A stretch of DNA of 42,039 bases from Lachnospiraceae bacterium (lineage in GTDB: Bacteria > Bacillota > Clostridia > Lachnospirales > Lachnospiraceae), in assembly GCA_017617395.1 (NCBI GenBank), contig JAFZWG010000089.1, forward strand, positions 1 to 42,039. Direction: 5' to 3'. The translations under genes were made by a program, and so were the position numbers. The notes below the pieces were generated by a model. It saw nothing but the letters and a program-made list of their open reading frames with translations, was not told where the DNA came from and did not search any database. Shown in pieces: positions 24,589-40,635 of the stretch. Each line of letters begins with the position of its first letter. Positions within the stretch are counted from its first letter, which is position 1.

Positions 24589-24606
24589 GGATTTACCGAT
24601 TTCGGG

Positions 24607-24673
24607 TCGTTCATCAGGAAAAGGTGTCGTTCATCAAGATGGAATTGCATTTTTCGGGGGAATTTCCTATAAT
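24607..24673 (+). promoter_or_regulatory. Twin direct-repeat promoter, copy 1 (LytTR-like)
   Basis: Two copies of TCGTTCATCA at 24607-24616 and 24627-24636, period 20. The -35 TTGCAT (24645-24650) starts 18 bp after the second copy starts; a 17-bp spacer leads to TATAAT (24668-24673). The same arrangement recurs at 31787 and 36776. Confidence 0.75.
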
Positions 24674-24697
24674 GAAAATGGCGGAAAGGAGGCCATC

Positions 24698-24901
24698 ATG
24701 AAAAAGTACAAAGTGTGGGCGAATGTGTTGTATGTTCTGGCGGCGGTGATCTTCGTAGGGATCGCGGTCTTTGTGGGTTACGCACTCCAACACCCGGAGG
24801 GGACGTGGCCTTACGGGCTGCATGTGCTGATCGGAGGGATTGCGCTGCTCGTCGTGTGCATTGTCGTCGGGGTTGTGCTGGATGTCAAGGCGCACAAGTG
24901 A
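24698..24901 (+). CDS. Small two-helix membrane protein (67 aa)
   Basis: A 67-residue protein with two hydrophobic helices (about 7-29 and 41-62) joined by a short loop with HPEGTWPYG, and a basic C-terminal DVKAHK. The sequence shows no signal cleavage site, so it probably stays in the membrane. AAAGGAGG (24685-24692) precedes ATG 24698. Its promoter carries the same paired repeats as the RHS and bacteriocin operons, and a strong bidirectional terminator follows, so it is a single-gene transcript. No family recognised. Possible roles are immunity, a signalling helper or a stress-response peptide; these are guesses from context only. Confidence 0.78.
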   Translation: MKKYKVWANVLYVLAAVIFVGIAVFVGYALQHPEGTWPYGLHVLIGGIALLVVCIVVGVVLDVKAHK

Positions 24902-24936
24902 AGAGTCAAACATACAAAAACGGAAAAGAAGTAAAT

Positions 24937-24978
24937 AAGCCGGGATAAAGACGTGGAAACGATACTTTATCCCGGCTT
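24937..24978. terminator. Bidirectional terminator between 67-aa gene and STT3-like gene
   Basis: A perfect 14-bp inverted repeat, AAGCCGGGATAAAG (24937-24950) and CTTTATCCCGGCTT (24965-24978), with a 14-nt loop, placed between two convergent genes. T-runs are short. Confidence 0.8.
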
Positions 24979-25001
24979 GTTCATACTGAATACGGCGTGG
25001 T

Positions 25002-27743
25002 TTATTTGCCGAGGTCCCACACGGAGACTTCGTGCCACTCGGGCGTGCCGCCGTCTGCGGGCAGCTCGAGGGTGCTTCGGTAGAAAAGGTTGTCGCCGCG
25101 GGTCATGAAGCCGCGGATCAGGACGGTGTTGGCGGCCTGGGAGCTGCACACAAGGCAGCGGTACACGTTCGGGCTGTCCTCGCGAAGGAGGATTGTGTAT
25201 GCCGCGCGCGGAGCGCGGAAGCCCGGGATCGCGGGATCCAGGGAGTAGGACTCGGAGTCGATGTCGGTGCGAAGCACCGCAGTGTCGTTCGAGTCTGCAC
25301 TGCTTTGGTCGGCCGGGTCGTACGTCGTGACGCGGAACTCTGCTGAGAGCACGCGGTCGGAGCCGTCGACAAATTCTGCCGTCAGCCGCCCGTCCGCATC
25401 GCGGGTGACGCGGACCTTGCTGTCCGAGTCGTCCATCGGGATCGTGACGGTTGTGGCGGGCAAAATCTTCGTCGCAGTCATGTTTTTCCAGATGCCCGGA
25501 AGCGCGGGGTCGCCGTTAAAGTCCCAAAGTCCGTACGTCGCGATCGCGCCGGTCTTGCGGAGCATGTCGTCGGAGAGGACGAGGTAGATCGGACGCGGGT
25601 TGTCGGGGTGCGTGAGCGCGAGGACGTTGTCGGCCAGCTCGGCGCCAATGCCGTAGCCGTCGGTCATCAGGGCGCGCGCCTCCTCGCGGGAGAGCGCGGC
25701 GATCTGCTTGAGAATCGTGGTCGCGTAGCCGTAAGGGTTGTCCAGATGGTCCGGCAGCGCGAGCGCGGGATCGGACGGTTTGTCGGCTTCGCCCGCCGGG
25801 CCGTAGGCGTCGCGCAGCAGGTGCGTGGCGTCGAGACCGCCGGTCGCCAGCATTCGGAAGAGTCCCTTTGCCTGCGACTCATCGGTGCTCATCAGCGCCT
25901 GCCCGAGCCAGTAATTCCACTCGCTGTTAAAGTTGCCGCCGTCGCCGAGCGTGAGGCGCTCCGCGGCGTATTCGTAGAAGTAACCGTAGTCCCACCACGA
26001 CGCGATGACGGCGTCCTCGTCGGTGTTCTCGCGGATGCACGCGCACATGTCCGCAAGCGTGTCGGTGCCGTCCGGCACGGCGCAGTACGCGAAGCCGAAT
26101 GCGGCCATGCACGGCGACAACACCAAGGAAAATGCAAACAGATTGATGATGGCAGCCCGCTTAAACTTCCACAGCAGCAGGCCGATGACCAGCGCCGCTG
26201 CAGCGGCGCCGCACGCCGCCGGCGTTCCGAACTCCGGCCGGATTGCGAACGCACACGTGATGACCGCCACGGCGATCAGGGCGATATAGATGGCGGTGCG
26301 AGGAGTTTGTTTCGTTGCGGTGTCGGTCGGCTCGGAGGTGCTTTCGCCGGGGGCTGCCTCATTGTCAGTTTCGTCCGAACCGTGTCCGAGCCGTGCCGAC
26401 AGGCGGCCGATGCCGAGGCCGCAGAAGAGGCCGATCGGCAGCACGGGGATGGTCAAAAAGCGCGAGCCGGTGCTCATGATGACAAGGCCGCAGAACAGCC
26501 ACACGAAGAGGAAGGCGGTCGTCAGGATGAGGTCGGTTGGATTTTCCGAAGGGGAGGGTTCGCTGTCGGCGGTGGCGTCGCGGCGCACGAAGGCGGCGCG
26601 CAGGCACAGGCCAACGAGAAGTCCGACGACGGCAGCGGCGAAGAGGATCACCGTCCAGCCGCCGAGCGCGTTGACGATGCCGTCCGCGTACGCGGCAAAT
26701 CCATCCAGAACGCGCCCAAGCATACCTTTGCTGTATTCGTTCGAGAGCACCGGCGTCGGCTGCAGCTCGCCGACAAATCGCGCGGCGCTCGGGAAGACGC
26801 GGTCGCCGTTGCCGAGCGACCCGCTTGCGTCGTTGAGGATGCCCGCGAGGTCCGTGAAAAGCTCGCGGTCGCGGATGATGAGGCTTAAGAGAAGCTGCGC
26901 CGCAAGGCCGATGCCCAGGCCGCGCAGGGCGGGAAGGAAGTCGAACGGGCGGTCGGGGTTCATTTTCCGAAGGCGCTGTACGAACCAGGCCACACCGCAC
27001 GCGAAGATCGCGCAAACGGCCGCTGCGACGCCAACGCAGAAGTATGCGTAGTAGGCGCGCCAGAAGGTGCCGAGGGCGCAGAGGGCGAGGCCTGAGCCGA
27101 GGCCGGCGAGGATCTGGTGACGGAGGTCGCGCGTGAGCAGGCACTCCGCGAACAGCAGCAGAAAGACGCACGGCAGCAGGGACAGGCCGAGGTCGGTGTC
27201 ATAGAAGCCGGCGTGCGTGTGTGCGGCGAACGGTGCCGCGACGGCGACCAGAAGACCCGCGACCAGGCCGCCGAAGCGGTTGGTGCGGCGTCGCACGAAG
27301 ATGTATGCGGGAATTGCGGTGAGCGAGGTGACGATCGGCGCGAGCCAGAAAATGACGCCGTACGGCGTGACGCCGGGCACCCACGAGATCAGGCGGTAAA
27401 CCGTGGCGCCGAGGATCGGGAGGCCCATGACGACGTCGCCCTCTTCGCCGGTTGCATTTGCCGAGATGTACGGGTCCGCGCCGCGGTCATGCCGCAGCGT
27501 GTACGCGCCGAAGCCCTCCTCCGCCAGCTCCTCCGTGAGCCGGCAGTACAGGTAGGAGTCCATCTCGCTTAAGTACGGCAGCCCCTCCTCCGTGCGGTAC
27601 TCGTCGGCCGCCGCCTGCCCCTGCATGGTGAAGACCGGCAGCGACATCGAGTGCAGCAGGATCGACAAAAACACCGCCAGCACGCACGGTGCCGCGCTGC
27701 CGCGAAGAATCTTTTTGAGCTTTTCGGTTCCTTCCGGTTTCAT
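25002..27743 (-). CDS. STT3/AglB-like oligosaccharyltransferase
   Basis: A 913-residue polytopic membrane protein of the STT3 family, the catalytic subunit that transfers a lipid-linked glycan to Asn in N-glycosylation (known as PglB in Campylobacter and AglB in archaea). Family landmarks are present in order: an acidic EMDSYLYCR motif (D62) in the first external loop, a FYDTDLG motif (D182, D184), VGELQPT (E326; compare the SVSE-QPT of eukaryotic and archaeal STT3), and the sequon-binding WWDYG at 583-587. About 13 hydrophobic segments precede a roughly 330-residue C-terminal external domain. GGGGAGAA precedes the ATG. It is a single gene, convergent with the 67-aa gene. The glycan donor is unknown; the nearby Wzx/Wzy locus or a separate pathway could supply it. 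Confidence 0.82.
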   Translation of the reverse strand: MKPEGTEKLKKILRGSAAPCVLAVFLSILLHSMSLPVFTMQGQAAADEYRTEEGLPYLSEMDSYLYCRLTEELAEEGFGAYTLRHDRGADPYISANATGEEGDVVMGLPILGATVYRLISWVPGVTPYGVIFWLAPIVTSLTAIPAYIFVRRRTNRFGGLVAGLLVAVAAPFAAHTHAGFYDTDLGLSLLPCVFLLLFAECLLTRDLRHQILAGLGSGLALCALGTFWRAYYAYFCVGVAAAVCAIFACGVAWFVQRLRKMNPDRPFDFLPALRGLGIGLAAQLLLSLIIRDRELFTDLAGILNDASGSLGNGDRVFPSAARFVGELQPTPVLSNEYSKGMLGRVLDGFAAYADGIVNALGGWTVILFAAAVVGLLVGLCLRAAFVRRDATADSEPSPSENPTDLILTTAFLFVWLFCGLVIMSTGSRFLTIPVLPIGLFCGLGIGRLSARLGHGSDETDNEAAPGESTSEPTDTATKQTPRTAIYIALIAVAVITCAFAIRPEFGTPAACGAAAAALVIGLLLWKFKRAAIINLFAFSLVLSPCMAAFGFAYCAVPDGTDTLADMCACIRENTDEDAVIASWWDYGYFYEYAAERLTLGDGGNFNSEWNYWLGQALMSTDESQAKGLFRMLATGGLDATHLLRDAYGPAGEADKPSDPALALPDHLDNPYGYATTILKQIAALSREEARALMTDGYGIGAELADNVLALTHPDNPRPIYLVLSDDMLRKTGAIATYGLWDFNGDPALPGIWKNMTATKILPATTVTIPMDDSDSKVRVTRDADGRLTAEFVDGSDRVLSAEFRVTTYDPADQSSADSNDTAVLRTDIDSESYSLDPAIPGFRAPRAAYTILLREDSPNVYRCLVCSSQAANTVLIRGFMTRGDNLFYRSTLELPADGGTPEWHEVSVWDLGK

Positions 27744-27783
27744 GACATTCTCCCCTTATGCTTTTCGATGCGGTTTCCACCGG

Positions 27784-27804
27784 GAGCGGCTATAGAAGCC
27801 GCTC
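27784..27804 (-). promoter_or_regulatory. Hairpin in the 5' leader of the STT3-like gene
   Basis: GAGCGGC (27784-27790) and GCCGCTC (27798-27804) form a 7-bp stem in the transcribed leader between the promoter and the start codon. Function unknown. Confidence 0.45.
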
Positions 27805-27825
27805 TTGGGGAACTTTTTTAACGAA

Positions 27826-27855
27826 ATTATATCAATTTGTTCCCCAAAACTCAAG
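27826..27855 (-). promoter_or_regulatory. Promoter of the STT3-like gene
   Basis: Read on the minus strand: TTGAGT (27855-27850), 18-bp spacer, TATAAT (27831-27826), about 83 bp before the start codon. Confidence 0.6.
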
Positions 27856-27890
27856 CAGGTGACAATGGGACAGTTCTTTTGTCACCTGCT
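27856..27890. repeat. Palindromic repeat, GGGACAGTTCTTTTGTCA type
   Basis: An 11-bp inverted repeat GCAGGTGACAA (27856-27866) and TTGTCACCTGC (27880-27890) whose loop includes GGGACAGTTCTT, shared with the larger palindrome at 40658-40706. It sits at the -35 side of the STT3 promoter. Confidence 0.65.
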
Positions 27891-27912
27891 CCTGCGTTAA
27901 TCGAGCGGCGGA

Positions 27913-28069
27913 GGCAGATGGTGGCGGCGGGCACGCTTCTTCGCAACCCTGACATATCCGAAACCGCAGAAACTTTTTCGAGCGAGCATTTTCCTGCGAG
28001 CGAGAAAAACGTCTTCTGCGCGTTTCGGAGTATTCCGGGAGTGAAGCGTGCCCGCCGTCCCCCCTGCCA
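27913..28069. repeat. Long imperfect inverted repeat (about 155 nt) in the 670-bp gene-free gap
   Basis: The gap 27744-28413 between the STT3-like and MATE genes has no convincing gene. Its core is a long hairpin. The outer arms share a perfect 14-bp stem, GGCGGGCACGCTTC (27926-27939) with GAAGCGTGCCCGCC (28043-28056), extended outward by GGCAG/CTGCC. Inner arms TCCGAAAC-CGCAGAA (27957-27971) pair with TTCTGCG-C-GTTTCGGA (28014-28029). No terminal target-site duplication is evident. It could be a MITE-like element or a structured RNA. Confidence 0.6.
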
Positions 28070-28229
28070 GTTCGAAGCCGAAGGATAAGATATGACATCA
28101 TTTTCGGGACGGAAAGAGTAGAATGGTGCATTTGTTTTTGCGGTGAGATGGGGCATAATCGTGGCGTGGGGTGCCGCGAGGCGGTTTATTAACTTTGCTG
28201 ACATCCTCTGCGTGTATAAAAGAGTGACC

Positions 28230-28250
28230 GGAACCCGTGATGCGGGTTCC
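28230..28250. repeat. Perfect 8-bp palindrome upstream of MATE gene
   Basis: GGAACCCG-TGATG-CGGGTTCC lies about 70 bp upstream of a possible -10 (TACAAT 28321-28326) for the MATE gene. It may be a hairpin or an operator; no T-run follows. Confidence 0.45.
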
Positions 28251-28413
28251 AGTTGCATTTTATGGGGGTTTTTACGGGATTTTTATTGAGAAATCCATCG
28301 ATTCTGCGGTGGAGTTCGTGTACAATAGACAGGAGTGCGAGGAGAAAGGGGGCGACGTGTCGCGGGCGCGCGTGTGTACGCGGGCGCGGGGACGTCGGTT
28401 AGGTTTCAAATAC

Positions 28414-29898
28414 ATGAAACTGTTTCAAAAAGATCCGGCATTTTACAAGAAAGTTATTGTTTTGGCTCTGCCCATTGCGCTGCAGAGCCTTGTTGCGGTC
28501 GGCGTGAACATGCTCGACACGATCATGGTCGGCAGCATCGGCAACGCGTACATCCCGACGCTCGGGGAGAAGGCGGCCGAGGCGATCAGCGAGCAGTCGC
28601 TGACGGCGGTGTCGCAGGCGAACACATTCATCGGAATTTATCACATTTTCTGCATGGGACTCGGAATGGGCGCATCGGTTCTGGTGTCGCGCTACTGGGG
28701 CATGAAGCAGAAGGGCGATGACGAGGGAGGCAAGGCGACGACGGCCCTCAAGCAGACCGTGTGCCTGATGCTCCGGCTGACACTGTTGCTGGCGTCGCTG
28801 TTCGCAATTGCGACGTTCGTGATGCCCGAGACCATTATGAAAATGTACGCGAAGACCGCGACGACTCCGGAGGAGGAGATCGCCATCGCCAATGTGCTTT
28901 CGCGCGGCGCGGATTATCTGCGGTACTCGGTAGTCACGTATTTCTTCCTGGGCACGTCGCTCACGGTGACCATCGTGCTGCGAAGCGTCGGGCAGGCGCT
29001 TCTGCCGCTGCTGGTTTCCATCGGCGCGTTGTTCGTCAACCTGGTTGCCAATTATGCATTTATCTTCGGCCATTTCGGCGCGCCCCGCATGGAGGTTGAG
29101 GGCGCGGCGCTCGGCACGCTGATCGCCCGCATCTTCGAGGCGGTGATGATCGTCGGCTACCTTCTGGTGGTTGACAAGCGCATCCGCTTCCGCGTGAAGA
29201 ACCTCTTCATGAAGACGGGCTCGCTTATCAAAGAATACATCCGCATCAGCATTCCCGTGCTGATCAGCGACGGCATTCTGGCGCTCGGCAACAACTCCGT
29301 CATGATGGTCATCGGCCGTCTCGGGCAGGAGTTTACGTCGGCAAATGCCATCACAGCCGTGACGCAGCAGATGAGCACGGTCGGCATCCAGGGCGTGTGC
29401 CAGGCGGGCGCGATCGTGACCGGCCAGACGCTCGGCCAGGGCGACCGCAAGAAGACGATGAGGCAGGGCTGGATGTTCTTCGGGCTCGGGCTGGCGCTCG
29501 GATTGCTGGCTGCATTTATCGTCCTCATCATCCAGACGCCCGTCATCAACGGCTACGATGTCGGCAGCTACACGAAGGAGCTGGCGCACCAGCTGATGAC
29601 CGCCATCAGTATCATTCTGATTTTCCAGGCGACGAACAGCATCATGACCAAGGGCGTGCTCCGCGGCGGCGGCGACACGAAGATGCTGATGCTCATGGAC
29701 AACGTGTTCCTGTGGGCGATCGCACTGCCGCTCGGCTGCATCGCGGGATTTGTCTTGAAGCTTGACGCATTCTGGGTTTACATTTTCTTAAAGTCCGACC
29801 AGATCGTGAAGGCTGTCTGGTGTTACTTCCGCTTAAAGAGCGAAAAATGGATCAAAAAGATTTCGACCGGTGAGCCGCAGGCGGAGCCGGAAAAATAG
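28414..29898 (+). CDS. MATE-family multidrug/sodium antiporter
   Basis: A 494-residue transporter with about 12 hydrophobic segments, typical of MATE proteins that export cationic compounds using a sodium or proton gradient. Landmarks are ALPIALQSLVAVGVNMLDTIMVG at the N-terminus, then GMGASVLVSRYWG and ITAVTQQMSTVGIQGVCQAGAIVTGQ in the second half. ATG 28414 fits the family N-terminus (MKLFQKDPAFYKK) but has a weak ribosome site. An in-frame GTG at 28357 has a stronger SD (GGAGAAAGGGGG) and would add 19 arginine-rich residues, so the start is uncertain. It is followed after 21 bp by the arabinofuranosidase, suggesting an operon, though substrates are probably unrelated. Confidence 0.9.
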   Translation: MKLFQKDPAFYKKVIVLALPIALQSLVAVGVNMLDTIMVGSIGNAYIPTLGEKAAEAISEQSLTAVSQANTFIGIYHIFCMGLGMGASVLVSRYWGMKQKGDDEGGKATTALKQTVCLMLRLTLLLASLFAIATFVMPETIMKMYAKTATTPEEEIAIANVLSRGADYLRYSVVTYFFLGTSLTVTIVLRSVGQALLPLLVSIGALFVNLVANYAFIFGHFGAPRMEVEGAALGTLIARIFEAVMIVGYLLVVDKRIRFRVKNLFMKTGSLIKEYIRISIPVLISDGILALGNNSVMMVIGRLGQEFTSANAITAVTQQMSTVGIQGVCQAGAIVTGQTLGQGDRKKTMRQGWMFFGLGLALGLLAAFIVLIIQTPVINGYDVGSYTKELAHQLMTAISIILIFQATNSIMTKGVLRGGGDTKMLMLMDNVFLWAIALPLGCIAGFVLKLDAFWVYIFLKSDQIVKAVWCYFRLKSEKWIKKISTGEPQAEPEK

Positions 29899-29919
29899 GA
29901 GAAGCTGGAGGGGTATTTT

Positions 29920-31650
29920 ATGGCTAAAAAGGCTAAAATTTCGGTGCATCCGTCGTTTGAGATCGGCGAGATTTCCGACGAGCTGTTCTCGGCGTTTCTG
30001 GAGCCGATCGGCACGATGGTGAACGGCACGATGTACAATCCGAAGCATCCGACGGCGGACGAGCAGGGCTTCCGCACCGACGTCATCAACGCGCTGAAGG
30101 CGACGGGGCTTCCCGCGGTTCGCCTTCCGGGCGGAAACTTTGTTTCGGCATGGCAGTGGAAGGACTCGATCGGCCCGAAGTCGGAGCGCAAGGTGCATCT
30201 CGACCCGGCGTGGTACCAGGTGATCCCGAACGATGTCGGTCACGATGAGTATCTGCAGTGGGCGGAGAAGATCGGCGCCAGATCCCTGTACACGGTCAAC
30301 ATGGGCACCGGCCGCACGCAGGACGCGATGGACTGCGTGGAGTATACGAATTTTCCGGGCGGAACGTACTGGTCCGACCTGCGTATCAAGAACGGTCACG
30401 AGAAGCCGTACGGCGTGAAGACGTGGTATCTCGGCAACGAGATGGATGGCCCGTGGCAGCTTGGCTCCTGGGACAAGGACCCGCGCGCTTACGGCGTCAT
30501 GGTCAACGAGACCTCGAAGGCGATGAAGTGGATCGACGCGTCCATCAAGACGGGCGTGTGCGGGTCCTCCGCGCCGTTTATGGAGCATTTTCCGGATTGG
30601 GATGAGGCGGCTCTGGACGTGTGCTACGACACGGTCGACTACCTCTCGATCCATCATTATCACAGCGCGCCTCCCGGAGACATCAAGGCTTTGCTCGGCG
30701 GCGCCCTGTACTATGAGGATTTCATCAACACCGAGGTTGCGATGTGCGACTACGTGCAGTCCAAGCATCGCTCGCCGAAGAAAATGATGATCTCCTTCGA
30801 CGAGTACGGCGGCATGATCCGCCCGAACTCGCCGCTGCATCCAGGCTGGGGCCGCTACAACATGGCGCGCTCGCACTACCGCTTCAACCCGGACCGGCCG
30901 TATCTCTTCCATGACCCGGACAAGATGCCGGATCGCCGCTTCCCGGGCGGGGACCTTGTGCAAATGCTCTCGATGGCTTCCATCCAGCTTGCGCTTCTTC
31001 GCCACGCGGACCGTGTGAAGATCGGCTGCATGACCGGCGGCCTCGGTGCTCTGTGTGCTTCGAACCGCGACAACGTATGGCGCTCGGCGTCGCATTACGC
31101 GTTTCTGCAAATGCTCGCTTACGCGAAGGGCACCTCGATGCAGGTTGCGGTCGACAGCGAGACGTACGACATGCCCGGCTACGCGATCGACGACACCTCG
31201 CAGTACGTGGGCAAGACCGGCGTTCCGTACGTGGACGCGGCTTGCGCCTGGGACAAGAAGGCGGGCCGTCTCGCGGTGTTTGTGATCAACCGCAACGAGG
31301 CCGAGGACTACGCGCTCTCGTTGGACGTCACCGGTTTCTCCGGCGTTGCCGCTTCGCCGACCGTCGCAAAGGTTGCGGAGGTTGTGGAGCCCGCATGGCC
31401 GTTCGGCGCCGCTCCCGCAAAGGGCAAGGATGCCAAGGCATCTTCCGCCGCGAAGGCTGAGTCTTTCGCCAAGCTCTCGGGCTTTTCGTCATGCACCATG
31501 TATGAAATCTCGGGCGACCCCGAGGCCCAGAGCGAGTTCGGCAACGACGAGATCTTCGCTCCTTCCGTCAACAAGCGCGCGAAGCTCGCGGACGGTATCG
31601 TCACCGCCCACATCAAGCCGCTGTCGCTCAACCTGATCGTGCTGGAGTAA
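29920..31650 (+). CDS. GH51 alpha-L-arabinofuranosidase
   Basis: A 576-residue glycoside hydrolase of family 51 that releases arabinofuranose from arabinoxylan or arabinan oligosaccharides. The acid/base glutamate is E174 in LGNEMDGPW and the nucleophile is E295 in SFDEYGGM; RLPGGNF and HHYHSAP are further active-site segments. There is no signal peptide, so it acts on imported oligosaccharides in the cytoplasm, as is usual for GH51. An Ala/Lys-rich low-complexity stretch near residues 490-520 interrupts the C-terminal beta domain and makes the protein longer than the roughly 500 residues typical of the family. GGAGAAGCTGGAGGGG provides the ribosome site. A terminator follows. Confidence 0.92.
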   Translation: MAKKAKISVHPSFEIGEISDELFSAFLEPIGTMVNGTMYNPKHPTADEQGFRTDVINALKATGLPAVRLPGGNFVSAWQWKDSIGPKSERKVHLDPAWYQVIPNDVGHDEYLQWAEKIGARSLYTVNMGTGRTQDAMDCVEYTNFPGGTYWSDLRIKNGHEKPYGVKTWYLGNEMDGPWQLGSWDKDPRAYGVMVNETSKAMKWIDASIKTGVCGSSAPFMEHFPDWDEAALDVCYDTVDYLSIHHYHSAPPGDIKALLGGALYYEDFINTEVAMCDYVQSKHRSPKKMMISFDEYGGMIRPNSPLHPGWGRYNMARSHYRFNPDRPYLFHDPDKMPDRRFPGGDLVQMLSMASIQLALLRHADRVKIGCMTGGLGALCASNRDNVWRSASHYAFLQMLAYAKGTSMQVAVDSETYDMPGYAIDDTSQYVGKTGVPYVDAACAWDKKAGRLAVFVINRNEAEDYALSLDVTGFSGVAASPTVAKVAEVVEPAWPFGAAPAKGKDAKASSAAKAESFAKLSGFSSCTMYEISGDPEAQSEFGNDEIFAPSVNKRAKLADGIVTAHIKPLSLNLIVLE

Positions 31651-31670
31651 ACAACACAATGCACATGAAA

Positions 31671-31707
31671 CCTCCGTGTATCCCGAACCGGTACACGGAG
31701 GCTTTTT
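31671..31707 (+). terminator. Rho-independent terminator after arabinofuranosidase
   Basis: A perfect 10-bp stem CCTCCGTGTA (31671-31680) and TACACGGAGG (31692-31701) followed by CTTTTT. Confidence 0.92.
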
Positions 31708-31786
31708 GATTTGTGAAAATGCAGTTTTTCTTGCTTTGGCGGCGGGCATTTTCCGCTTTTTCATCGCTTCGCCCCCCGAAAGAGTG

Positions 31787-31853
31787 TCGTTCATCCCAAA
31801 AAAGTGTCGTTCATCCAAATCCGATTGCTTCGGGCAGAGAGCGCGCGTAAAAT
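31787..31853 (+). promoter_or_regulatory. Twin direct-repeat promoter, copy 2 (LytTR-like), RHS operon
   Basis: TCGTTCATC at 31787-31795 and 31807-31815 (period 20). -35 TTGCTT (31825-31830) starts 18 bp after the second copy starts; 17-bp spacer; -10 TAAAAT (31848-31853). Geometry is identical to the site at 24607. Confidence 0.75.
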
Positions 31854-31894
31854 AAAAGGACAGAAGTATAACTATAACATGGGGGGTATTCTGT

Positions 31895-34800
31895 ATGCGA
31901 AAAATAGTCTCAATGATCCTCGCACCTGCGATGATCGTTTCGCTTTTGGTGAACGTAAACATCGCGCAGGCAGGCAAGGGCGGAAAGAAGCAGGGAACGA
32001 ATCCCTACGGCGAAAATGCCGTTCTGTTTGCGGAGCAGATTTCCGTGAACGGAACGAAACTGACCGCTCCGTCGGAGGCAGTGTCCGGAGAGGTTGCAAA
32101 GAACAACCTTCTGGAACTTCTTCCCGCGGAAACCGAACGGAAAGACCGTCTTTCCCTGTCCGGATCGCAGTTGTCCGTAGACACGGCGACCTATGTGACC
32201 GGCCCGGTTTCCCTGTCGGGCTCTAGGATCACCATTAACAAACCGGTTGTCGCCACCGGAGACATCTCGGTTTCCGCTTCGGATGTGACCATCGCGGAAG
32301 GCGCCGCCCTGGTTTCCCTGAACGGTTCCGTCAACCTCTATTGCACGAATCATACCGTAAACGGTCCCGTTTGGGCAGCAAACAAGCTGTTCATTACCGG
32401 CAGCAAAACAACCGTAAACGAGGGCGCCTTCGCAAAGACCATCGAAATCTATACCGGCACCTACACCACCGACGGCACCGTAAAGGAGTCCGTCCGGAAA
32501 GGGCAGCGCAACAAGACCGCCGGGCTTACCCTCTACGGGATGGACGATAAGAACATGCTCTTTGCCAATGCCAACTTCGACTACGCAACCATGGATGTGT
32601 ACGGCCGGAAGAACGGGGAGAATTCCTTCACTCTCCTTCAGGCAAACATCATGGACGAGGATTTCGAAGTCCCTTCGTCCTGGAGCGTCTATACCGACTT
32701 TGCGGCAGTCCTGAAAAATGAATTCGGGTTCTACTTTAAGACGGAACCGCTCTCCATCGCGATCGAAGAGAACACCTGGTTCTCCTCCTACGGTGTCGAC
32801 ACGGATGAAGACAGCGTTCCCGATGCCTTTGAGCTCTGGCTTGCCGGGACCGATCCGAACACATCCGACACGTTCCCGAACCCCGAGTTCTATGTGTACC
32901 TTGCCGGAGAAGAGGAAACCACCTGTTATGACCGCCTTCTTCGCAGGGATGTCTCCGTCACAAAAAAAGCGTTTACCAAGACATTTATCTACGGAGATAC
33001 GGACTATCCGGGTCGTGCAACGGGAGCGGATGTGTGCTATACTGACGGTACAACCAAACGGATCCGCTATGAGTATGAAAACGATCGACTGAAAACCCTT
33101 CACGTCGGAAATAACGCATATACCATTCTGGAAAGCGAGAACAGTGTCCGTTACCTTGTCAACAGTACCTGCATTAAGCAGGCTTCCCAAACGGGAAATG
33201 AATGTACATACAATTATTTCGACACGATGCAGGCGGTGACTGGTTTTGATTCCGAGGGCAATCTTGTCTCGTTTTATAACGGTTCGTTGTATGAGATGAC
33301 CTACGATGATCTGCTTTTGCTGGTGGAACTTGCAAAGAACGGTGCTTCGTATGAGTCCTACACATATGATGATTACGGAAATTGTCTGACCATCGATGCT
33401 TCGGGTTACTCCATTCACTATACGCTCGATTATCCGCTCTATCAGGCGGACTATACCTTCGGGGCACAGAACAGCATTCAAAAGACCCAGAAGGTTAATT
33501 GTGCGGATGGCGACTATGGTTACGGGGAGGCGGTTCTCCTCACGGACGGTACGAACGGCGCGAACATACCACAGTCGCTCGTCGGGGAAATGATCTCGTT
33601 TGATTCCGATACGAAAACGTTACAGTATCGTATCGGGGAAGAGATATATACCGTAAAATTCAACGCAAGAGGCTACGTGGCGAAGGACACCGTAACCAAA
33701 GAAGGAAGCTCGGACACTACCGTGAACGAGTACTCCTATGATGCCTATGGAAATCTTCAGACCGTAAAGACAACAAAGAACGGACAGACAACCGTACAGC
33801 GGTATTCCTACAGCAGCGCGTGGTCCGATGAGCTGACTTCCTTCGATGGAAGATCTATCACCTACGGTACCTTCGGAAAGCCTGCGGAGTACTATAACGG
33901 TATGTCCTTTACCTGGGCGGCAGGAAAGCTTGCCACGGTGCGAAACGGAGACACTTCTGCATCTTACCTTTATGACTATCAGGGACTCCGTGAGGAGAAG
34001 ATCGTTAATGGGGCAACAACGAGATACATCTACGAAGGCCATGACCTGATCGCCGAACTATCCGCAGATCCGATCTATTTTACGTATGACGGAACCTTCC
34101 ATCTTGTAGGCTTTGAGTGGAACGGAGCGGCGTATTACTACCGGTACGATATCTTCGGTGATGTTGTCGGTATCGTAAATGCAGCCGGAGAAACCCTCTG
34201 CACCTACACATACGACCTCTGGGGCGCTATTACCGGAATCACCGGCGATCAGGCCCTTGCAGACAGAAACCCCATCCGTTATCGTGGATATTACTACGAC
34301 AATGAGACCGGCTTCTACTACCTGGAGACAAGATACTATGATCCGCAAGTGAAGCGGTTCCTGTCCTACGATGAGATGGAAAGCTTCTTCTACGGCGCTG
34401 AGGAGGACATGGAGAGCCTGTTTGTGTACTGCGGAAATAACCCGGTGGCATATTCGGATTATGACGGCCGGTATCTGGCGAAAAACACCGTGCTTTCCAT
34501 AGATCAATTCTGGGACGAAGCGAAAGACTTCATCATACCGGATATTGATAAGTTCTGGAGAGACAAAGGCAACGGTACATATTCGGTCTCGGCACTTGGC
34601 AGGATCTCCGATTCAACGGATTTTGTACAAAGATGGAGCGAGATGCCCAACAACCAGGACTTTGTCGTTATTAATTCGCATGGGGAGCCGTATGATATAA
34701 ACGGATCGACGAAGTCCAACGGAAAATGGGTAGGATACACAATCCTTTACATAAAAGCTGTCAGAGAAAAACTGGATAAGAGCAAGCACATGAAAGCAAT

Positions 34801-35134
34801 TATTCTGCTTGGGTGCAATTGCGGGCATTATGATCACAGAGATTACAACAAATATAATATCGCAAACATTGCGAGAATCTTTGCCGATACATTTAACACC
34901 ACAGTGTTTGCTTCTGACGGGAATGTAAGATTGCACACGAATGAGTCAAAGCCATTAACGCCTAAAGAAGTGGCTGATCCTTGGACAAAATATGTGAACA
35001 GCGGAAGAACGACGAACAAAGGATGGCTAGCATATGTAAAAAAGAGTCTCAGCAATCATTATACCGGATTGATTGAACTCGGGCATAAGAACGGATGGAA
35101 GATCAGCGAGATGTTACGGTACTACGGTTATTAA
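31895..35134 (+). CDS. Secreted RHS-repeat protein with C-terminal caspase-like candidate toxin domain
   Basis: A 1079-residue polymorphic-toxin-like protein. A Sec signal peptide (MRKIVSMILAPAMIVSLLVNVNIAQA) is followed by a Ser/Thr/Val-rich beta region (about 60-200), then a calcium-loop segment DTDEDSVPDAFE. RHS/YD-type repeats run from about residue 370 to 800, ending in the RHS core signature YDNETGFYYLETRYYDPQVKRFLS and YCGNNPVAYSDYDG (to about 857). The last 220 residues are a distinct domain. VVINSHGEP (H929) and IILLGCNCGHYD (C974), each after a hydrophobic strand, match the His-Gly and Cys dyad layout of clan CD (caspase/CHAT-like) peptidases. The ribosome site GGGGGG lies 8 nt before ATG 31895. 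Two small membrane proteins follow in the same direction and may be immunity proteins. Confidence 0.85.
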   Translation: MRKIVSMILAPAMIVSLLVNVNIAQAGKGGKKQGTNPYGENAVLFAEQISVNGTKLTAPSEAVSGEVAKNNLLELLPAETERKDRLSLSGSQLSVDTATYVTGPVSLSGSRITINKPVVATGDISVSASDVTIAEGAALVSLNGSVNLYCTNHTVNGPVWAANKLFITGSKTTVNEGAFAKTIEIYTGTYTTDGTVKESVRKGQRNKTAGLTLYGMDDKNMLFANANFDYATMDVYGRKNGENSFTLLQANIMDEDFEVPSSWSVYTDFAAVLKNEFGFYFKTEPLSIAIEENTWFSSYGVDTDEDSVPDAFELWLAGTDPNTSDTFPNPEFYVYLAGEEETTCYDRLLRRDVSVTKKAFTKTFIYGDTDYPGRATGADVCYTDGTTKRIRYEYENDRLKTLHVGNNAYTILESENSVRYLVNSTCIKQASQTGNECTYNYFDTMQAVTGFDSEGNLVSFYNGSLYEMTYDDLLLLVELAKNGASYESYTYDDYGNCLTIDASGYSIHYTLDYPLYQADYTFGAQNSIQKTQKVNCADGDYGYGEAVLLTDGTNGANIPQSLVGEMISFDSDTKTLQYRIGEEIYTVKFNARGYVAKDTVTKEGSSDTTVNEYSYDAYGNLQTVKTTKNGQTTVQRYSYSSAWSDELTSFDGRSITYGTFGKPAEYYNGMSFTWAAGKLATVRNGDTSASYLYDYQGLREEKIVNGATTRYIYEGHDLIAELSADPIYFTYDGTFHLVGFEWNGAAYYYRYDIFGDVVGIVNAAGETLCTYTYDLWGAITGITGDQALADRNPIRYRGYYYDNETGFYYLETRYYDPQVKRFLSYDEMESFFYGAEEDMESLFVYCGNNPVAYSDYDGRYLAKNTVLSIDQFWDEAKDFIIPDIDKFWRDKGNGTYSVSALGRISDSTDFVQRWSEMPNNQDFVVINSHGEPYDINGSTKSNGKWVGYTILYIKAVREKLDKSKHMKAIILLGCNCGHYDHRDYNKYNIANIARIFADTFNTTVFASDGNVRLHTNESKPLTPKEVADPWTKYVNSGRTTNKGWLAYVKKSLSNHYTGLIELGHKNGWKISEMLRYYGY

Positions 35135-35145
35135 GGAGCAGGAAC

Positions 35146-35637
35146 ATGACTGTTAAAAAGAAAATTTTATTGGTGAGCGGAATCGTGGTAGCGCTGTTGC
35201 TTGTTGCAATCGGCCTGTGCTACCTGATCCCGGGGTATTTAACTCCGATGAGCAAGTATCGGAAAATGACGAAATTATTAAAACCGTACGTTACGAAGGA
35301 GATAACTCATGATTCCGGATTCAGTGAGACAAAAGATCTGTGGGTTCTTTCGATGACGGTTGATGAATACGAGGAATTGCGGGAAAAACTGCTCGCAGAG
35401 GGAAGTGAACTCATCAAGGATGAGGATCTCTTATACTTTGTGAATTATGCGGAGGAAAAGACGGAAGGCGACGAGACGGAATATGTAGCCTACAACGGCG
35501 CCGAAGAAGTCTTTCTGGATATGTTCGACAACAGCATTTCCGTAAGCGTGCTGGTTATGTTTCATGAGGGCAGAGTTCACGCGGAATTCACGGGCTATGT
35601 GAATATTAATCACGCACCCTTTGCAGCGATTGAGTAG
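35146..35637 (+). CDS. Small membrane-anchored protein, candidate immunity protein A
   Basis: A 163-residue protein with one N-terminal membrane helix (about 6-27) and a 130-residue domain probably outside the cell, containing LKPYVTKEI, MTVDEYEELREKLLAEG and EEVFLDMFDNSISVSVLV. It starts 11 bp after the RHS stop with AAGGAGCAGG as ribosome site. It is homologous along its length to the next gene and of identical length. No family recognised. Position directly behind an RHS toxin and predicted surface location suggest immunity against the secreted effector, but this is inference. Confidence 0.75.
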   Translation: MTVKKKILLVSGIVVALLLVAIGLCYLIPGYLTPMSKYRKMTKLLKPYVTKEITHDSGFSETKDLWVLSMTVDEYEELREKLLAEGSELIKDEDLLYFVNYAEEKTEGDETEYVAYNGAEEVFLDMFDNSISVSVLVMFHEGRVHAEFTGYVNINHAPFAAIE

Positions 35638-35666
35638 CAAGAGAATCAGAAAGAAGGGGGCAACAG

Positions 35667-36158
35667 ATGAATAAAAAGAAAGTAGTACTGATCATTGCAG
35701 GCGTTATCCTGTTGCTGGCGGCACTTGCGGGGTGGTGTTACTGGACCGCAGGACACAAGATTCCGATGCGGGAGTATCAGAAGATAACAGAACGGTTTAA
35801 GCCTTATATCGTGGAAGAAATCGAGAAAAGCGCTGAGTTCGGGGAGGCACACGTAAGAGCAAAGCTGGAAATGACTACGGAGGAATACGAAGGTCTGCGA
35901 AAGCAGTTGCTTGCAGAAGGCTGGGGCCTATACGAAGGAGATGTCCACGGAGAGCTGCAGTTCCTTACGGAGTATGAAGACGGAGATCGGACGGAATCCT
36001 GGATGTACAGAACCCACGCAGATGTCTTTCTGGATGTATTTGACAACAATATTTTCGTCGATATGATCGCGTTATACCACAAGGACAAGGTATATATCGA
36101 GTATTATGACGGAGTCGGGATTAACCATACGCCGTTTCAAAAAGTGGAGTGCAAATGA
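35667..36158 (+). CDS. Small membrane-anchored protein, candidate immunity protein B (paralog of A)
   Basis: A 163-residue paralog of the upstream gene. It has an N-terminal helix (MNKKKVVLIIAGVILLLAAL) and the matching blocks FKPYIVEEIE, MTTEEYEGLRKQLLAEG and ADVFLDVFDNNIFVDMIAL. AAGAAGGGGG precedes the ATG. Shared ending VGINHTPF versus VNINHAPF confirms duplication. Duplicated immunity genes behind a polymorphic toxin are common and can protect against related toxin variants. Only a weak hairpin (CACCG/CGGTG near 36170-36195) follows. Confidence 0.75.
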   Translation: MNKKKVVLIIAGVILLLAALAGWCYWTAGHKIPMREYQKITERFKPYIVEEIEKSAEFGEAHVRAKLEMTTEEYEGLRKQLLAEGWGLYEGDVHGELQFLTEYEDGDRTESWMYRTHADVFLDVFDNNIFVDMIALYHKDKVYIEYYDGVGINHTPFQKVECK

Positions 36159-36209
36159 CAAAGGAACCACCGGAGCCGATTTGCGGTGCCTCGTTTTGAC
36201 ATTGGTGTA

Positions 36210-36641
36210 TCAGGCGGTGGGGTCTGCCTTGCGGCAGTCCTCACAGAGGCCGTAGAGCACGGTGCGGAGAGGGTCGAGCCGGAAGCCGTGCGCGTCGAAG
36301 AGGTGCGAGCGGATCGAGGCGAGCTCGTCGCAGTGCAGGTGGATCAGGGTGCCGCAGCGCTCGCATTTGCAGTGGAAACACGAGTCCGCGCCTTCGCGCG
36401 CGGCCTCGCCGATGTACTCGAAGCAGGCGGGACTGTTGGCGTCAATGATGTATTTGTTGAGAAGGCCCTCCGCGACGAGGTTCTCGAGCTGCCGGTAGAC
36501 GGTCGACTGGCTGATCGGGATGCCCTGTTGCCGGAAGTACGCGCATACGTCCGCCGCGGTTGTGTGGTCGCCGGGCGCGCTCGCAAGATACTCGAGCAGG
36601 ATGTCGCGCTGTTTCGTGCGGTATTTGGAACGGGTGTTCAT
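36210..36641 (-). CDS. Fur-family metalloregulator (Fur/Zur-like)
   Basis: A 143-residue winged-helix repressor that senses metal and binds operator DNA. The recognition helix region is ISQSTVYRQLENLVAEGLL. Zinc-binding cysteine pairs are C93-C96 (CKCERC) and C133-C136 (CEDC). The metal-sensing region has C88, H90, H101 and H103, with Cys where classical Fur has one of the His, a layout common in clostridial Fur/Zur relatives. GAGGAGA precedes the ATG and a consensus promoter lies at 36708-36736. It is transcribed away from the bacteriocin operon. Which metal it senses cannot be told. Confidence 0.9.
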   Translation of the reverse strand: MNTRSKYRTKQRDILLEYLASAPGDHTTAADVCAYFRQQGIPISQSTVYRQLENLVAEGLLNKYIIDANSPACFEYIGEAAREGADSCFHCKCERCGTLIHLHCDELASIRSHLFDAHGFRLDPLRTVLYGLCEDCRKADPTA

Positions 36642-36707
36642 CGTGGATACGTCTCCTCTCGTCAGATGCGGTTCGGGCGAAAAATCCTTGTCCCGAAAAC
36701 GCTACTG

Positions 36708-36736
36708 ATTATAGTCCCGCCCCGGAAAAATGTCAA
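36708..36736 (-). promoter_or_regulatory. Consensus promoter of the Fur-family gene
   Basis: Read on the minus strand: TTGACA (36736-36731), 17-bp spacer, TATAAT (36713-36708). It is a perfect match to the housekeeping consensus. Confidence 0.85.
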
Positions 36737-36775
36737 GAAAAATGAGAATCGTTCCCGATTTGACGAAAAAAGGTG

Positions 36776-36843
36776 TCGTTCATCAAAAAAAAGTGTCGTT
36801 CATCAAAACACAGTTGATTTTTTATCGGAAAACAACGAATAAT
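36776..36843 (+). promoter_or_regulatory. Twin direct-repeat promoter, copy 3 (LytTR-like), bacteriocin operon
   Basis: TCGTTCATC at 36776-36784 and 36796-36804 (period 20). -35 TTGATT (36814-36819) starts 18 bp after the second copy starts; -10 AATAAT (36838-36843) with an 18-bp spacer. Same geometry as the sites at 24607 and 31787. Confidence 0.75.
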
Positions 36844-36930: not shown

Positions 36931-37401
36931 ATGAAGAAGGTAGTTTGTGTGGTAGCGAGTGTTTTTGCAGCACTGATGCTGTCCATACTCGTAAACGAAG
37001 CGTATGCCTACACGTATGAGGACACCATTGAAACTCAGGGTGCCGGGACTCGCAAATACGAGTGGGAATGGTCCTGGGACATTAACTATGGTGAAACCTG
37101 GTGCCCCATCGGAACGTTCGTAATCGGCTTCGAAACGGACTGGATCAATGAGTACTATTCGTGGTCTCGTGCGGAGTGGCCGGGAAATCCCGTGTATACA
37201 AAGGCCGGGGTAAAGAACGCGGGTCAGTCCTGGACGTATGCATCCTGGAAAGGTAATTGGAGCTGGTCCAAAGAGGAAATCAGAGCAAAGAAAGATACGG
37301 CTTATTTCCGTGTCATGGTCGGAACAAATTACGGTGAAGGCTATGAATGGCACAATTTCCTTTTCTTAACGAATCTAGACAGGTATTCGAATTACAAGTA
37401 A
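36931..37401 (+). CDS. Secreted Trp-rich protein, candidate lactococcin-972-like bacteriocin
   Basis: A 156-residue preprotein with a Sec signal peptide cleaved after A26 (NEAYA-YTYED), giving a mature protein of about 130 residues with 12 tryptophans and many Tyr, Ser and Gly. The pattern YSWSRAEWPG...AGQSWTYASWKG...AYFRV recalls the Tyr/Trp-rich mature region of lactococcin 972 (Sec-exported, targets lipid II), but identity is low and it is longer. AAAAGGAG precedes ATG 36931; an upstream frame from 36730 runs through the promoter and is rejected. Its downstream neighbours are the permease and ABC ATPase characteristic of that bacteriocin group. Alternatively it is another secreted protein of that operon. 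Confidence 0.55.
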   Translation: MKKVVCVVASVFAALMLSILVNEAYAYTYEDTIETQGAGTRKYEWEWSWDINYGETWCPIGTFVIGFETDWINEYYSWSRAEWPGNPVYTKAGVKNAGQSWTYASWKGNWSWSKEEIRAKKDTAYFRVMVGTNYGEGYEWHNFLFLTNLDRYSNYK

Positions 37402-37417
37402 TTCGCAGCAGCCCTTG

Positions 37418-37466
37418 ATATGCTTTTGCAGCAGGATGGAAAAGCCTGTTGCAAAAGCATATTTAT
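37418..37466 (+). terminator. Strong hairpin between bacteriocin gene and downstream genes (possible leaky terminator)
   Basis: An 18-bp stem with one G-U pair: arms 37418-37435 and 37445-37462, 9-nt loop, followed by TTATTG instead of a full T-run. Placement after the structural gene suggests partial termination that favours precursor mRNA. Confidence 0.7.
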
Positions 37467-37521
37467 TGATAATTTGAAAGAAATACATGGCGGTCAGCCA
37501 TATCATTCGGAGAGCGTATCA

Positions 37522-38043
37522 ATGGAAACAAAAAAGACTTCAAGGTGGTTTCGCAGGATTGCAATTCTGGCGATCGTTGCAGTGGTACTGGGGCTTGTTT
37601 ATCTGGGGGTTCATTTTATTTGTTCCAGAGTTGTGATGGGGCCTTTTCTGGAAGGGGAGAAGAAAGACAGCTGGTATGTCACTTCCGACGACACGTATCT
37701 TGTCTCCGCGCGGGGATTCGGGTTGATGGAATTTTACGGCGAAATCCATGTTGAGCGCGCGGCAAACCGCAGAGTTGTAATCGGAAGCGGAGAAGAGCCG
37801 AAGCCTACCTGCGGATTGATCGTGTGGCGAGGAGTGGGGTTTGTAGATTTCGGGCTGATGATCACGACGGTTCCCGAGGGAAAGAGAATCGTTTATTATC
37901 TGATCACGATTGACGAGAACGGCAAGTATGTTCCGGACGGAACGGTAACGGGGGAGAGCGAAGAATTCGTCAAGACATTTATCGAAGAAAATCAGGATGA
38001 AATTCAGGGAATGCTGCAAAAATATCATTCGATAGGGGGTTGA
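37522..38043 (+). CDS. Membrane-anchored protein of bacteriocin operon
   Basis: A 173-residue protein with one N-terminal helix (about 13-33, AILAIVAVVLGLVYLGVHF) after a basic METKKTSRWFRR segment, then a beta-rich domain outside the cell. No family recognised. GGAG at 37509-37512 gives the ribosome site; the longer frame from 37420 starts within the hairpin and is rejected. Its stop lies at the start of the permease gene (overlap TTGA if the TTG at 38040 is used). By position it could be an immunity protein, a processing helper or a second secreted factor. Confidence 0.7.
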   Translation: METKKTSRWFRRIAILAIVAVVLGLVYLGVHFICSRVVMGPFLEGEKKDSWYVTSDDTYLVSARGFGLMEFYGEIHVERAANRRVVIGSGEEPKPTCGLIVWRGVGFVDFGLMITTVPEGKRIVYYLITIDENGKYVPDGTVTGESEEFVKTFIEENQDEIQGMLQKYHSIGG

Positions 38044-38048
38044 TTCTT

Positions 38049-40010: not shown

Positions 40011-40635
40011 GATCAAAGGGCTGACAAAGAAGTATGAAAACCGGGTGCTGTTCCGGGATTTCAATCTGACGGTGGAAGACGGAGAGTTCGTTGTCATCGT
40101 CGGGGAGAGCGGCGCCGGCAAGACGACACTTTTGAACATGATCGGCGGGCTGGAGGAAGCGACCGGCGGGACGATTGAATTTAACGGAAAACCGATCACG
40201 GGGAAAATGAACGACCGTGAATTTTACGGCAAGACGGTTGGATTTTTGTTTCAGAGCTTCGGTTTGCTGGAGGAGGAGACCGTGTATCGGAATCTGACTC
40301 TGGTTCCTGCGCGAAACCGAAGCACGATCAGTATCGAGGACGCAATGCAGCGGACCGGAATCGCTGATCTTAAGGATCAAAAAGTGTTTCGCCTCTCGGG
40401 CGGTGAGCAGCAGCGTGTTGCTCTGTGCCGCCTGATTATCAAGCAAAATGATTTGATCCTGGCGGATGAGCCGACCGGCAACCTCGACCCGGAGAATGCT
40501 AAAAAGGTGATGAGCATCCTCCGCGAAATCTGCGCCTTGGGAAAAACGGTCATTGTTGTCACGCACGATGTGCGTCTGATTCAAGAGGGAGATCGGGTTG
40601 TCAGGGTATCGCGATACGAGGAAGTCGCCGAGTGA
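40003..40635 (+). CDS. ABC transporter ATP-binding protein, lactococcin-972 group-like
   Basis: A 210-residue MacB/LolD-type ATPase. It has Walker A GESGAGKTT, a Q-loop FQSFGL, signature LSGGEQQR, Walker B LILADEPTG and H-loop VTHD. The compact length and pairing with the upstream permease match the putative bacteriocin export ATPases of the lactococcin-972 group. The start overlaps the permease stop by 8 bp, so the two are translationally coupled. It powers either toxin removal (immunity) or export. Confidence 0.88.
   Translation: MLEIKGLTKKYENRVLFRDFNLTVEDGEFVVIVGESGAGKTTLLNMIGGLEEATGGTIEFNGKPITGKMNDREFYGKTVGFLFQSFGLLEEETVYRNLTLVPARNRSTISIEDAMQRTGIADLKDQKVFRLSGGEQQRVALCRLIIKQNDLILADEPTGNLDPENAKKVMSILREICALGKTVIVVTHDVRLIQEGDRVVRVSRYEEVAE

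Follow-up and report, generated by a model that had tools for sequence, protein, structure and literature searches.

Twin direct repeats mark a predicted peptide-responsive LytTR regulon joining bacteriocin-like and RHS genes in a Lachnospiraceae genus

Three promoters in a 42,039-nucleotide stretch of Lachnospiraceae DNA, the whole of which we call the window, are preceded by twin direct repeats. With good confidence we read these repeats as sites of a regulon governed by a LytTR regulator and an AgrC-like kinase, in which a self-made inducer peptide, probably a short tryptophan-containing one (the Trp peptide), would close a positive loop. The sites, their spacing, the regulator and its co-occurrence with the sites are plain in the sequence itself.

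Within the window, TCGTTCATC occurs six times, at 24607/24627, 31787/31807 and 36776/36796, with no further exact copy, and the period is 20 bp in all three pairs, exactly as the initial annotation had reported. A scan allowing up to three mismatches finds the paired pattern three times, every one exact; 100 dinucleotide shuffles of the window contain it 0.02 times on average and once at most. Set in the LytTR register, each repeat becomes a half-site GTCGTTCAT with an N11 gap between the two, and the -35 element follows the second half-site after exactly 10 bp; the seven of nine positions said to fit the LytTR half-site consensus, as quoted in that annotation, are reproduced in this register. 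Its promoter geometry also holds at each site, with a -35 starting 18 bp after the start of the second repeat and a -10 following after 17, 17 and 18 bp. Among the sites of the genus, the conserved block extends beyond the motif first described, to TGTCGTTCATC plus an A-rich spacer. The sites and promoters of the window are:

24606..24634, plus strand: twin LytTR-type site 1, GTCGTTCAT-N11-GTCGTTCAT, exact match
24645..24673, plus strand: site 1 promoter, -35 TTGCAT (24645), 17 bp, -10 TATAAT
31786..31814, plus strand: twin LytTR-type site 2, exact match
31825..31853, plus strand: site 2 promoter, -35 TTGCTT (31825), 17 bp, -10 TAAAAT
36775..36803, plus strand: twin LytTR-type site 3, exact match
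36814..36843, plus strand: site 3 promoter, -35 TTGATT (36814), 18 bp, -10 AATAAT

Back to back with site 3 stands a perfect (12/12) sigma-70-like promoter on the minus strand (36708-36736), which faces a FUR-family gene at 36210-36641.

The following genes lie behind the three sites:

24698..24901, plus strand: 67-aa small hydrophobic membrane protein; no Pfam family over cut-off
31895..35134, plus strand: 1079-aa RHS protein; Rhs_assc_core (TIGR03696) 58.6 bits, cut-off 32.5
35095..35637, plus strand: 180-aa ORF overlapping the RHS gene end; no Pfam family over cut-off
36931..37401, plus strand: 156-aa bacteriocin-like protein; mediterrocin family NF052268 37.9 bits, curated cut-off 40, E 1.6e-9
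37420..38043, plus strand: 207-aa ORF between the bacteriocin-like gene and the membrane protein; no family over cut-off
38040..40010, plus strand: 656-aa membrane protein resembling bacteriocin-associated seven-TM/DUF1430 proteins, sub-threshold (TIGR01654 39.2 bits, cut-off 189.35; DUF1430 18.3 bits, cut-off 28.2)
40003..40635, plus strand: 210-aa ABC transporter ATPase, end of the bacteriocin-like unit; ABC_tran 2.5e-36

Two of these genes had looked like antagonism systems to the initial annotation. The RHS protein clears its family cut-off; the bacteriocin-like protein misses its own and appears to be a near relative only of the mediterrocin (lactococcin 972-type) family. Both begin, by eye, with a signal-peptide-like start. 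The RHS protein falls just below the cut-off for Pfam RHS_repeat (21.4 against 22 bits), and beyond residue ~845 its identity to one orthologue drops to 22-45%, against up to 87% in the core, which would suit exchangeable effector ends; this C-terminus matches no Pfam family over cut-off, and the 180-aa ORF behind it would sit in the position of an immunity gene. By resemblance the 67-aa protein may be immunity-like; by eye it is similar to an ORF of 80 aa that a twin site precedes in another genome of the genus (L081 in G007). The same genome encodes orthologues of the RHS protein (55% identical) and the bacteriocin-like protein (76% identical) on two contigs, each behind its own twin site, so that control seems to travel with the gene. 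Each protein is represented in three of the 22 genus genomes. For the RHS protein the third is the site-negative G017, whose relative is 35% identical over residues 612-1051 and has no site; the bacteriocin-like protein has a partial relative in G002, with about 34 kb between it and the closest site on that contig. The stretch of the RHS gene at 31895-32500 and a papain-like C92 protein encoded elsewhere in the genome (L015 7610-8965) have repetitive N-terminal-half stretches that look alike by eye, perhaps a shared surface module.

The genome from which the window comes (2.34 Mb in 97 contigs, 85.2% complete) carries nine twin sites, seven exact and two with one mismatch. No two-mismatch site was found, the three matches with three mismatches all lack the A-rich spacer and the reversed pattern has no match in this genome, so the motif's distribution is not a random one. 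Beyond the RHS unit and the regulator cluster, the units behind the sites are:

window 36931-40635, plus strand: Lcn972/mediterrocin-like, with ABC ATPase (2.5e-36)
window 24698, and contig C33: small hydrophobic proteins
contig C71: InlB-repeat protein
contig C82: permuted papain-like C92 protein
contig C53: 136-aa protein

The initial annotation had placed the regulator outside the window and proposed a search for LytTR regulator and kinase genes. Both are found on contig C31 of the same genome, in support of the LytTR-type regulon that the annotation proposed; two twin sites flank the regulator gene there, and the order, on the minus strand, is kinase, site, peptide, regulator, site, double-glycine-leader (GG) peptide, C39 ABC exporter and HlyD-like protein. 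The 241-aa response regulator has a LytTR domain (PF04397, 63.5 bits, cut-off 22.6, 2.1e-17) and a receiver domain (PF00072, 54.2 bits, cut-off 30.2, 1.9e-14), and the 429-aa kinase has a GHKL ATPase domain over its cut-off (HATPase_c_5, 80.8 bits, 7.7e-23). The regulator motif LIRAHKS fits the FhRhHRS given in the excerpt of PMC4227749, save for the first F and a change of R to K. An AF2 model of the regulator has a mean pLDDT of 86.8; by sequence, 34 PDB chains match, most over the receiver and one (3d6w) over the LytTR part, with AgrA and ComE absent among the 34. Two LytTR genes were found in this 85.2% complete genome, and the 3.3-kb locus of the second holds no paired GTT repeat by the rule applied. 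Between kinase and regulator lies a 25-aa Trp-rich ORF, MNDDIILRDYDFWEWLCKILGIPNN. The 64-aa GG peptide, assigned by its leader pattern (EMMEVNGG), reaches only 13.8 bits with TIGR03949 (cut-off 21.5) and matches no Pfam family, and the C39 peptidase exporter scores 695.9 bits with TIGR01193 (cut-off 523.85). Upstream of the kinase, on the minus strand (L013, 7707-10145), is a gene for a large protein with a transglutaminase-like match (PF01841, 23.8 bits, cut-off 23).

How widely is this arrangement shared? We searched 195 genomes with at most one mismatch, 22 of the window's genus, its own included, and 173 outside it. Twin sites occur in 13 of the 22 and in none of the 173; the reversed pattern is absent from the 22 and matches once among the 173 (G144). 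Orthologues of the regulator (67-100% identity) are present in 11 of the 13 site-positive genomes and in none of the nine site-negative ones (Fisher p 2e-4), and those of the kinase in 12 of 13 and none of nine (p 2e-5), counting a contig-end fragment in G021 and a gene split in two frames in G002. Wherever the regulator orthologue is present (11/11 genomes), a site lies between kinase and regulator. Of the other two site-positive genomes, G021 has only the kinase fragment and G019 has a single site with neither orthologue; this orphan site (L056, C35:51498-51526) has TTG at +18, followed by a 98-aa ORF.

The promoter architecture is equally regular. From 57 listed sites with up to two mismatches, those with two sought in the fetched stretches, we dropped L066 (overlapping register, two mismatches) and L084 (contig end); the remaining 55 are not independent, since several are near-identical orthologues from sister genomes (L017/L067, L060/L083). 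In 53 of the 55, TTG begins precisely 18 bp downstream of the start of the second repeat, the exceptions being L078 (+19) and L080. Compared with TTGACA, the -35 matches at five letters in 13 sites, four in 16, three in 25 and two in one, and is never perfect; a -10 with five or six of six letters, scored at whichever of six spacings suited it best, follows in 43 of 55 (shuffles: mean 2.8, maximum 9), the best spacing being 17 in 31 sites and 18 in 16. The motif is thereby tied to promoters, as the proposed regulon implied, and the combination of a weak -35, a good -10 and an activator site at fixed distance would fit activation from just upstream. In the set of LytTR repeats described in the excerpt of PMC6193735, 12 bp is the usual separation, 11 and 13 being minority forms, and the repeats strongly favour a position 10 bp upstream of the -35; against that set, the genus sites combine the minority spacing (N11) with the preferred distance.

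The first element behind the 55 sites is a short Trp peptide in 11, a GG-leader peptide in 12 and the regulator directly in one. Behind most of the remaining 31, inspection by eye shows either small hydrophobic proteins or ORFs that begin like a signal peptide; at L070 the contig runs out, and neither kind of ORF follows L078, L080 or L086. The L086 promoter (minus strand of G002 C5, site at 7042) is similar to the one in front of the RHS gene and is followed, by eye, by an apparent transposase on the other strand, so its unit is apparently interrupted.

From this arrangement we infer DNA binding and activation by the regulator, the Trp peptide as signal, and density dependence. A peptide outside the cell would act on the AgrC-like GHKL kinase, which would lead to phosphorylation of the 241-aa LytTR regulator; the phosphorylated regulator would bind the two direct repeats and recruit RNA polymerase to the weak -35 10 bp downstream. 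Because the regulator's own transcription unit opens with the same site, the loop should be positive. The regulon would comprise the Trp peptide, the GG peptide with its C39 exporter, the Lcn972-like bacteriocin unit, the RHS protein and the immunity-like membrane protein, so that bacteriocin-like and RHS proteins may be expressed jointly with immunity-like ones. The inducer would most likely be self-made, with the leaderless Trp peptide between kinase and regulator as the favoured candidate.

In 11 genus clusters the Trp ORF spans 24-36 aa with a ribosome-site-like leader, and its core reads [E/D]-[Y/C]-D-[F/L]-W-x-W-[L/F]-x-x-[I/L]-[L/F], the conserved form being YDFWEWLCxILGI. Pairwise differences among the clusters, from pairs that are not independent, number 184, 100 and 367 at the three codon positions, and codon changes are synonymous in 181 of 437 cases in the ORF's own frame as against 80 of 456 and 54 of 451 in the other two. 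This bias indicates that the ORF is very probably translated and under coding selection. The Trp codons might instead belong to an attenuator leader peptide, or the ORF to a type I toxin; the conserved residues around the tryptophans and the place beside the kinase make us disfavour both. Searches of NCBIfam with four peptides and of Pfam with two gave nothing over cut-off, the one sub-threshold match being to a viral membrane anchor (14.4 against 20.5 bits), and five plasmid records matching a composite of the peptides were set aside as chance (all below 60% identity, two with E-values of 5 and 7). The peptide lacks a leader, and no exporter for it was identified. Its divergence follows that of the kinase sensor half as a trend only (r 0.40, p 0.065; 0.03 for the kinase half, 0.11 for the regulator), in a comparison of 10 sequences with G002 left out.

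The same association reappears at a distance. Of five distant kinase homologues with flanks from other genera, three have a twin repeat directly behind the kinase in the N11/N10 geometry, exact in G266 and with two mismatches in G052 and G211; G395 has one half-site there by eye, and G350 no clear pair. Kinase matches occur in 47 of 397 family genomes, and among 28 distant loci (30 less two of the window's genus) six have a lenient LytTR twin repeat behind the kinase (shuffles: mean 0.1, maximum 2, 0/300 as high). Short Trp ORFs were noticed behind the kinases of G266, G211, G395, G350, G239, G273, G022, G272, G028, G206 and G363. A fixed rule, which misses those of G266 and G395 (found by eye, or beyond the distance limit), finds them behind nine of the 28, against a shuffle mean of 1.2 and a maximum of 4 in 300, and behind 26 of 512 other stops. 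These 512 end open frames of at least 200 codons, real or not, mostly of the window's genus, and include its kinases, so composition-matched controls were added in the form of the shuffles and of 50 other stops within the same 28 loci, of which one has such an ORF. The fixed rule finds no short Trp ORF behind the other 19 of the 28 kinases, and the short ORF in G052 lacks Trp. Relatives of the motif include IWEWILSIL, DWLKWILGI and DWSWLWKLFG.

The exact twin pattern is present in no stretch of viral contigs and in 10 stretches of Genome_contigs (own genome possibly excluded), nine of them in three Lachnospiraceae MAGs; the tenth, labelled 'Elioraea' (L046), we attribute to chance (GC 69.6%, no A-rich spacer, no TTG at +18). 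Among the 397 family genomes, six from outside the genus match once each with at most two mismatches, and since two genomes match when the pattern is read backwards, isolated distant matches may be chance and only kinase-adjacent ones were counted. At one locus in another genus (L151, G420 C36:32249-32290), a two-mismatch twin site lies, by eye, directly behind the end of an apparent LytTR gene. At another (L189, G103), an exact twin repeat, ATCGTTCAG-N11-ATCGTTCAG, follows the kinase stop, and then, by eye, a GG-leader peptide; the geometry is unchanged and the half-site different.

Is the Trp peptide the signal, or does the regulon answer to something else? The GG peptide, exported via the C39 transporter, might be the pheromone of the same LytTR regulon, leaving the Trp peptide as a co-regulated effector or membrane peptide. 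That is the classical route of the Com, Blp and Pln systems, with ComC, BlpC and PlnA as their peptides, and the GG peptides adjoin the C39 exporter in the window's own genome and follow 12 of the 55 sites, enough to keep this reading in serious view as a minority one. These peptides are, however, long (51-74 aa) and diverse and are sometimes encoded in series (L063), more in the manner of bacteriocins, whereas the Trp ORF sits between the kinase and regulator genes in 10 of 11 clusters (at a separate site in G001), and some distant kinases also have short Trp ORFs behind them. We favour the Trp peptide over the GG peptide as the probable pheromone, a clear though not overwhelming preference.

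A kinase that senses envelope stress, a diet or host compound, or rival bacteriocins would make the regulon a competition response rather than a quorum-sensing system, a reading that suits a regulon rich in antagonism-like and secreted proteins and does without the density dependence that we only infer. We consider this rather unlikely: the kinase is AgrC-like, its sensor half diverges far more than its kinase half (0.42 against 0.19 among 10 genus members), and peptide genes stand under the same site as the regulator. That some DNA-binding protein other than the C31 regulator binds the repeats seems very improbable. Binding by the regulator is itself a prediction, and G019 has a site and no regulator orthologue, but the 11/13 versus 0/9 co-occurrence, the sites flanking the regulator gene and the LytTR-typical geometry all point to the regulator. 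Chance or an ordinary dispersed repeat can be dismissed on the own-genome scan, the shuffle expectation of 0.02 in the window, the reversed controls in the genus and beyond it, and the fixed -35 distance across the genus sites.

The streptococcal ComDE and BlpRH and the lactobacillar Pln systems of bacteriocin quorum sensing pair kinases and regulators of the GHKL and LytTR families with a GG peptide exported via a C39 transporter. The regulon described here resembles them in its kinase and regulator, in a weak -35 preceded by twin direct repeats, in autoregulation, and in GG peptides with a C39 exporter and bacteriocin-like and immunity-like genes; on C31, the GHKL kinase, LytTR regulator, GG peptide and C39 exporter share one cluster, and all 11 genomes with a regulator orthologue have a predicted binding site at that gene's own unit. 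It differs in its Lachnospiraceae host, in the N11 gap (a minority form in the set of the PMC6193735 excerpt), in the extra leaderless Trp peptide between kinase and regulator, and in the RHS and Lcn972-like genes of the regulon. With Agr it shares a LytTR regulator and an AgrC-like kinase (NF046015, 43.6 bits, far below the cut-off of 500), but none of the 13 site-positive genomes, some of them incomplete, has an AgrB match at E <= 0.001. AgrB matches in the genus come from site-negative G015 (over cut-off; L198, L200) and G014 (below it), as if Agr and the Trp system were swapped, a pattern for which the counts are much too low to be informative (p 0.41). HdrRM and BrsRM, in the excerpt of PMC6193735, have LytTR direct repeats near the -35, positive feedback and bacteriocin control in common with our regulon; unlike those systems, whose regulators lack a receiver domain, the C31 regulator has one and a partner kinase, as in a two-component system. 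The mediterrocin cluster of Mediterraneibacter gnavus likewise encodes DUF1430 seven-TM and ABC proteins, together with an unspecified transcription regulator, and the excerpt of PMC12345188 leaves its regulation for further study; the window's bacteriocin-like protein lies below the family cut-off and its membrane protein is sub-threshold for DUF1430. A LytTR, peptide-regulated bacteriocin regulon is thus of a known kind, and what is new is the N11 spacing, the RHS and Lcn972-like genes in the regulon, the lack of AgrB and a conserved leaderless Trp peptide without a Pfam or NCBIfam family.

Lachnospiraceae are major bacteria of the gut and the rumen. Among the rumen papers found, those on signalling deal, judging by title and abstract beginning, with AI-2, acyl-homoserine lactones or chemical signalling in general; by the same measure, none of the open-licence papers found presents a leaderless Trp peptide with an AgrC-like kinase in this family, and the short hydrophobic peptides that do occur among them go with Rgg regulators, a different receptor type. 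It is conceivable, if somewhat short of probable, that leaderless Trp-motif peptides of about 15-36 residues behind AgrC-like kinases form an undescribed signal class across many Lachnospiraceae genera, one without AgrB or a double-glycine leader, which here would switch on a LytTR regulon joining bacteriocin-like and RHS genes. The fixed signature GTCGTTCAT-N11-GTCGTTCAT-N10-TTG makes the regulon readable even in incomplete genomes and marks the secreted proteins downstream of it as candidates for antagonism and immunity. It also leads to a peptide small enough to synthesize and to try directly as an inducer.
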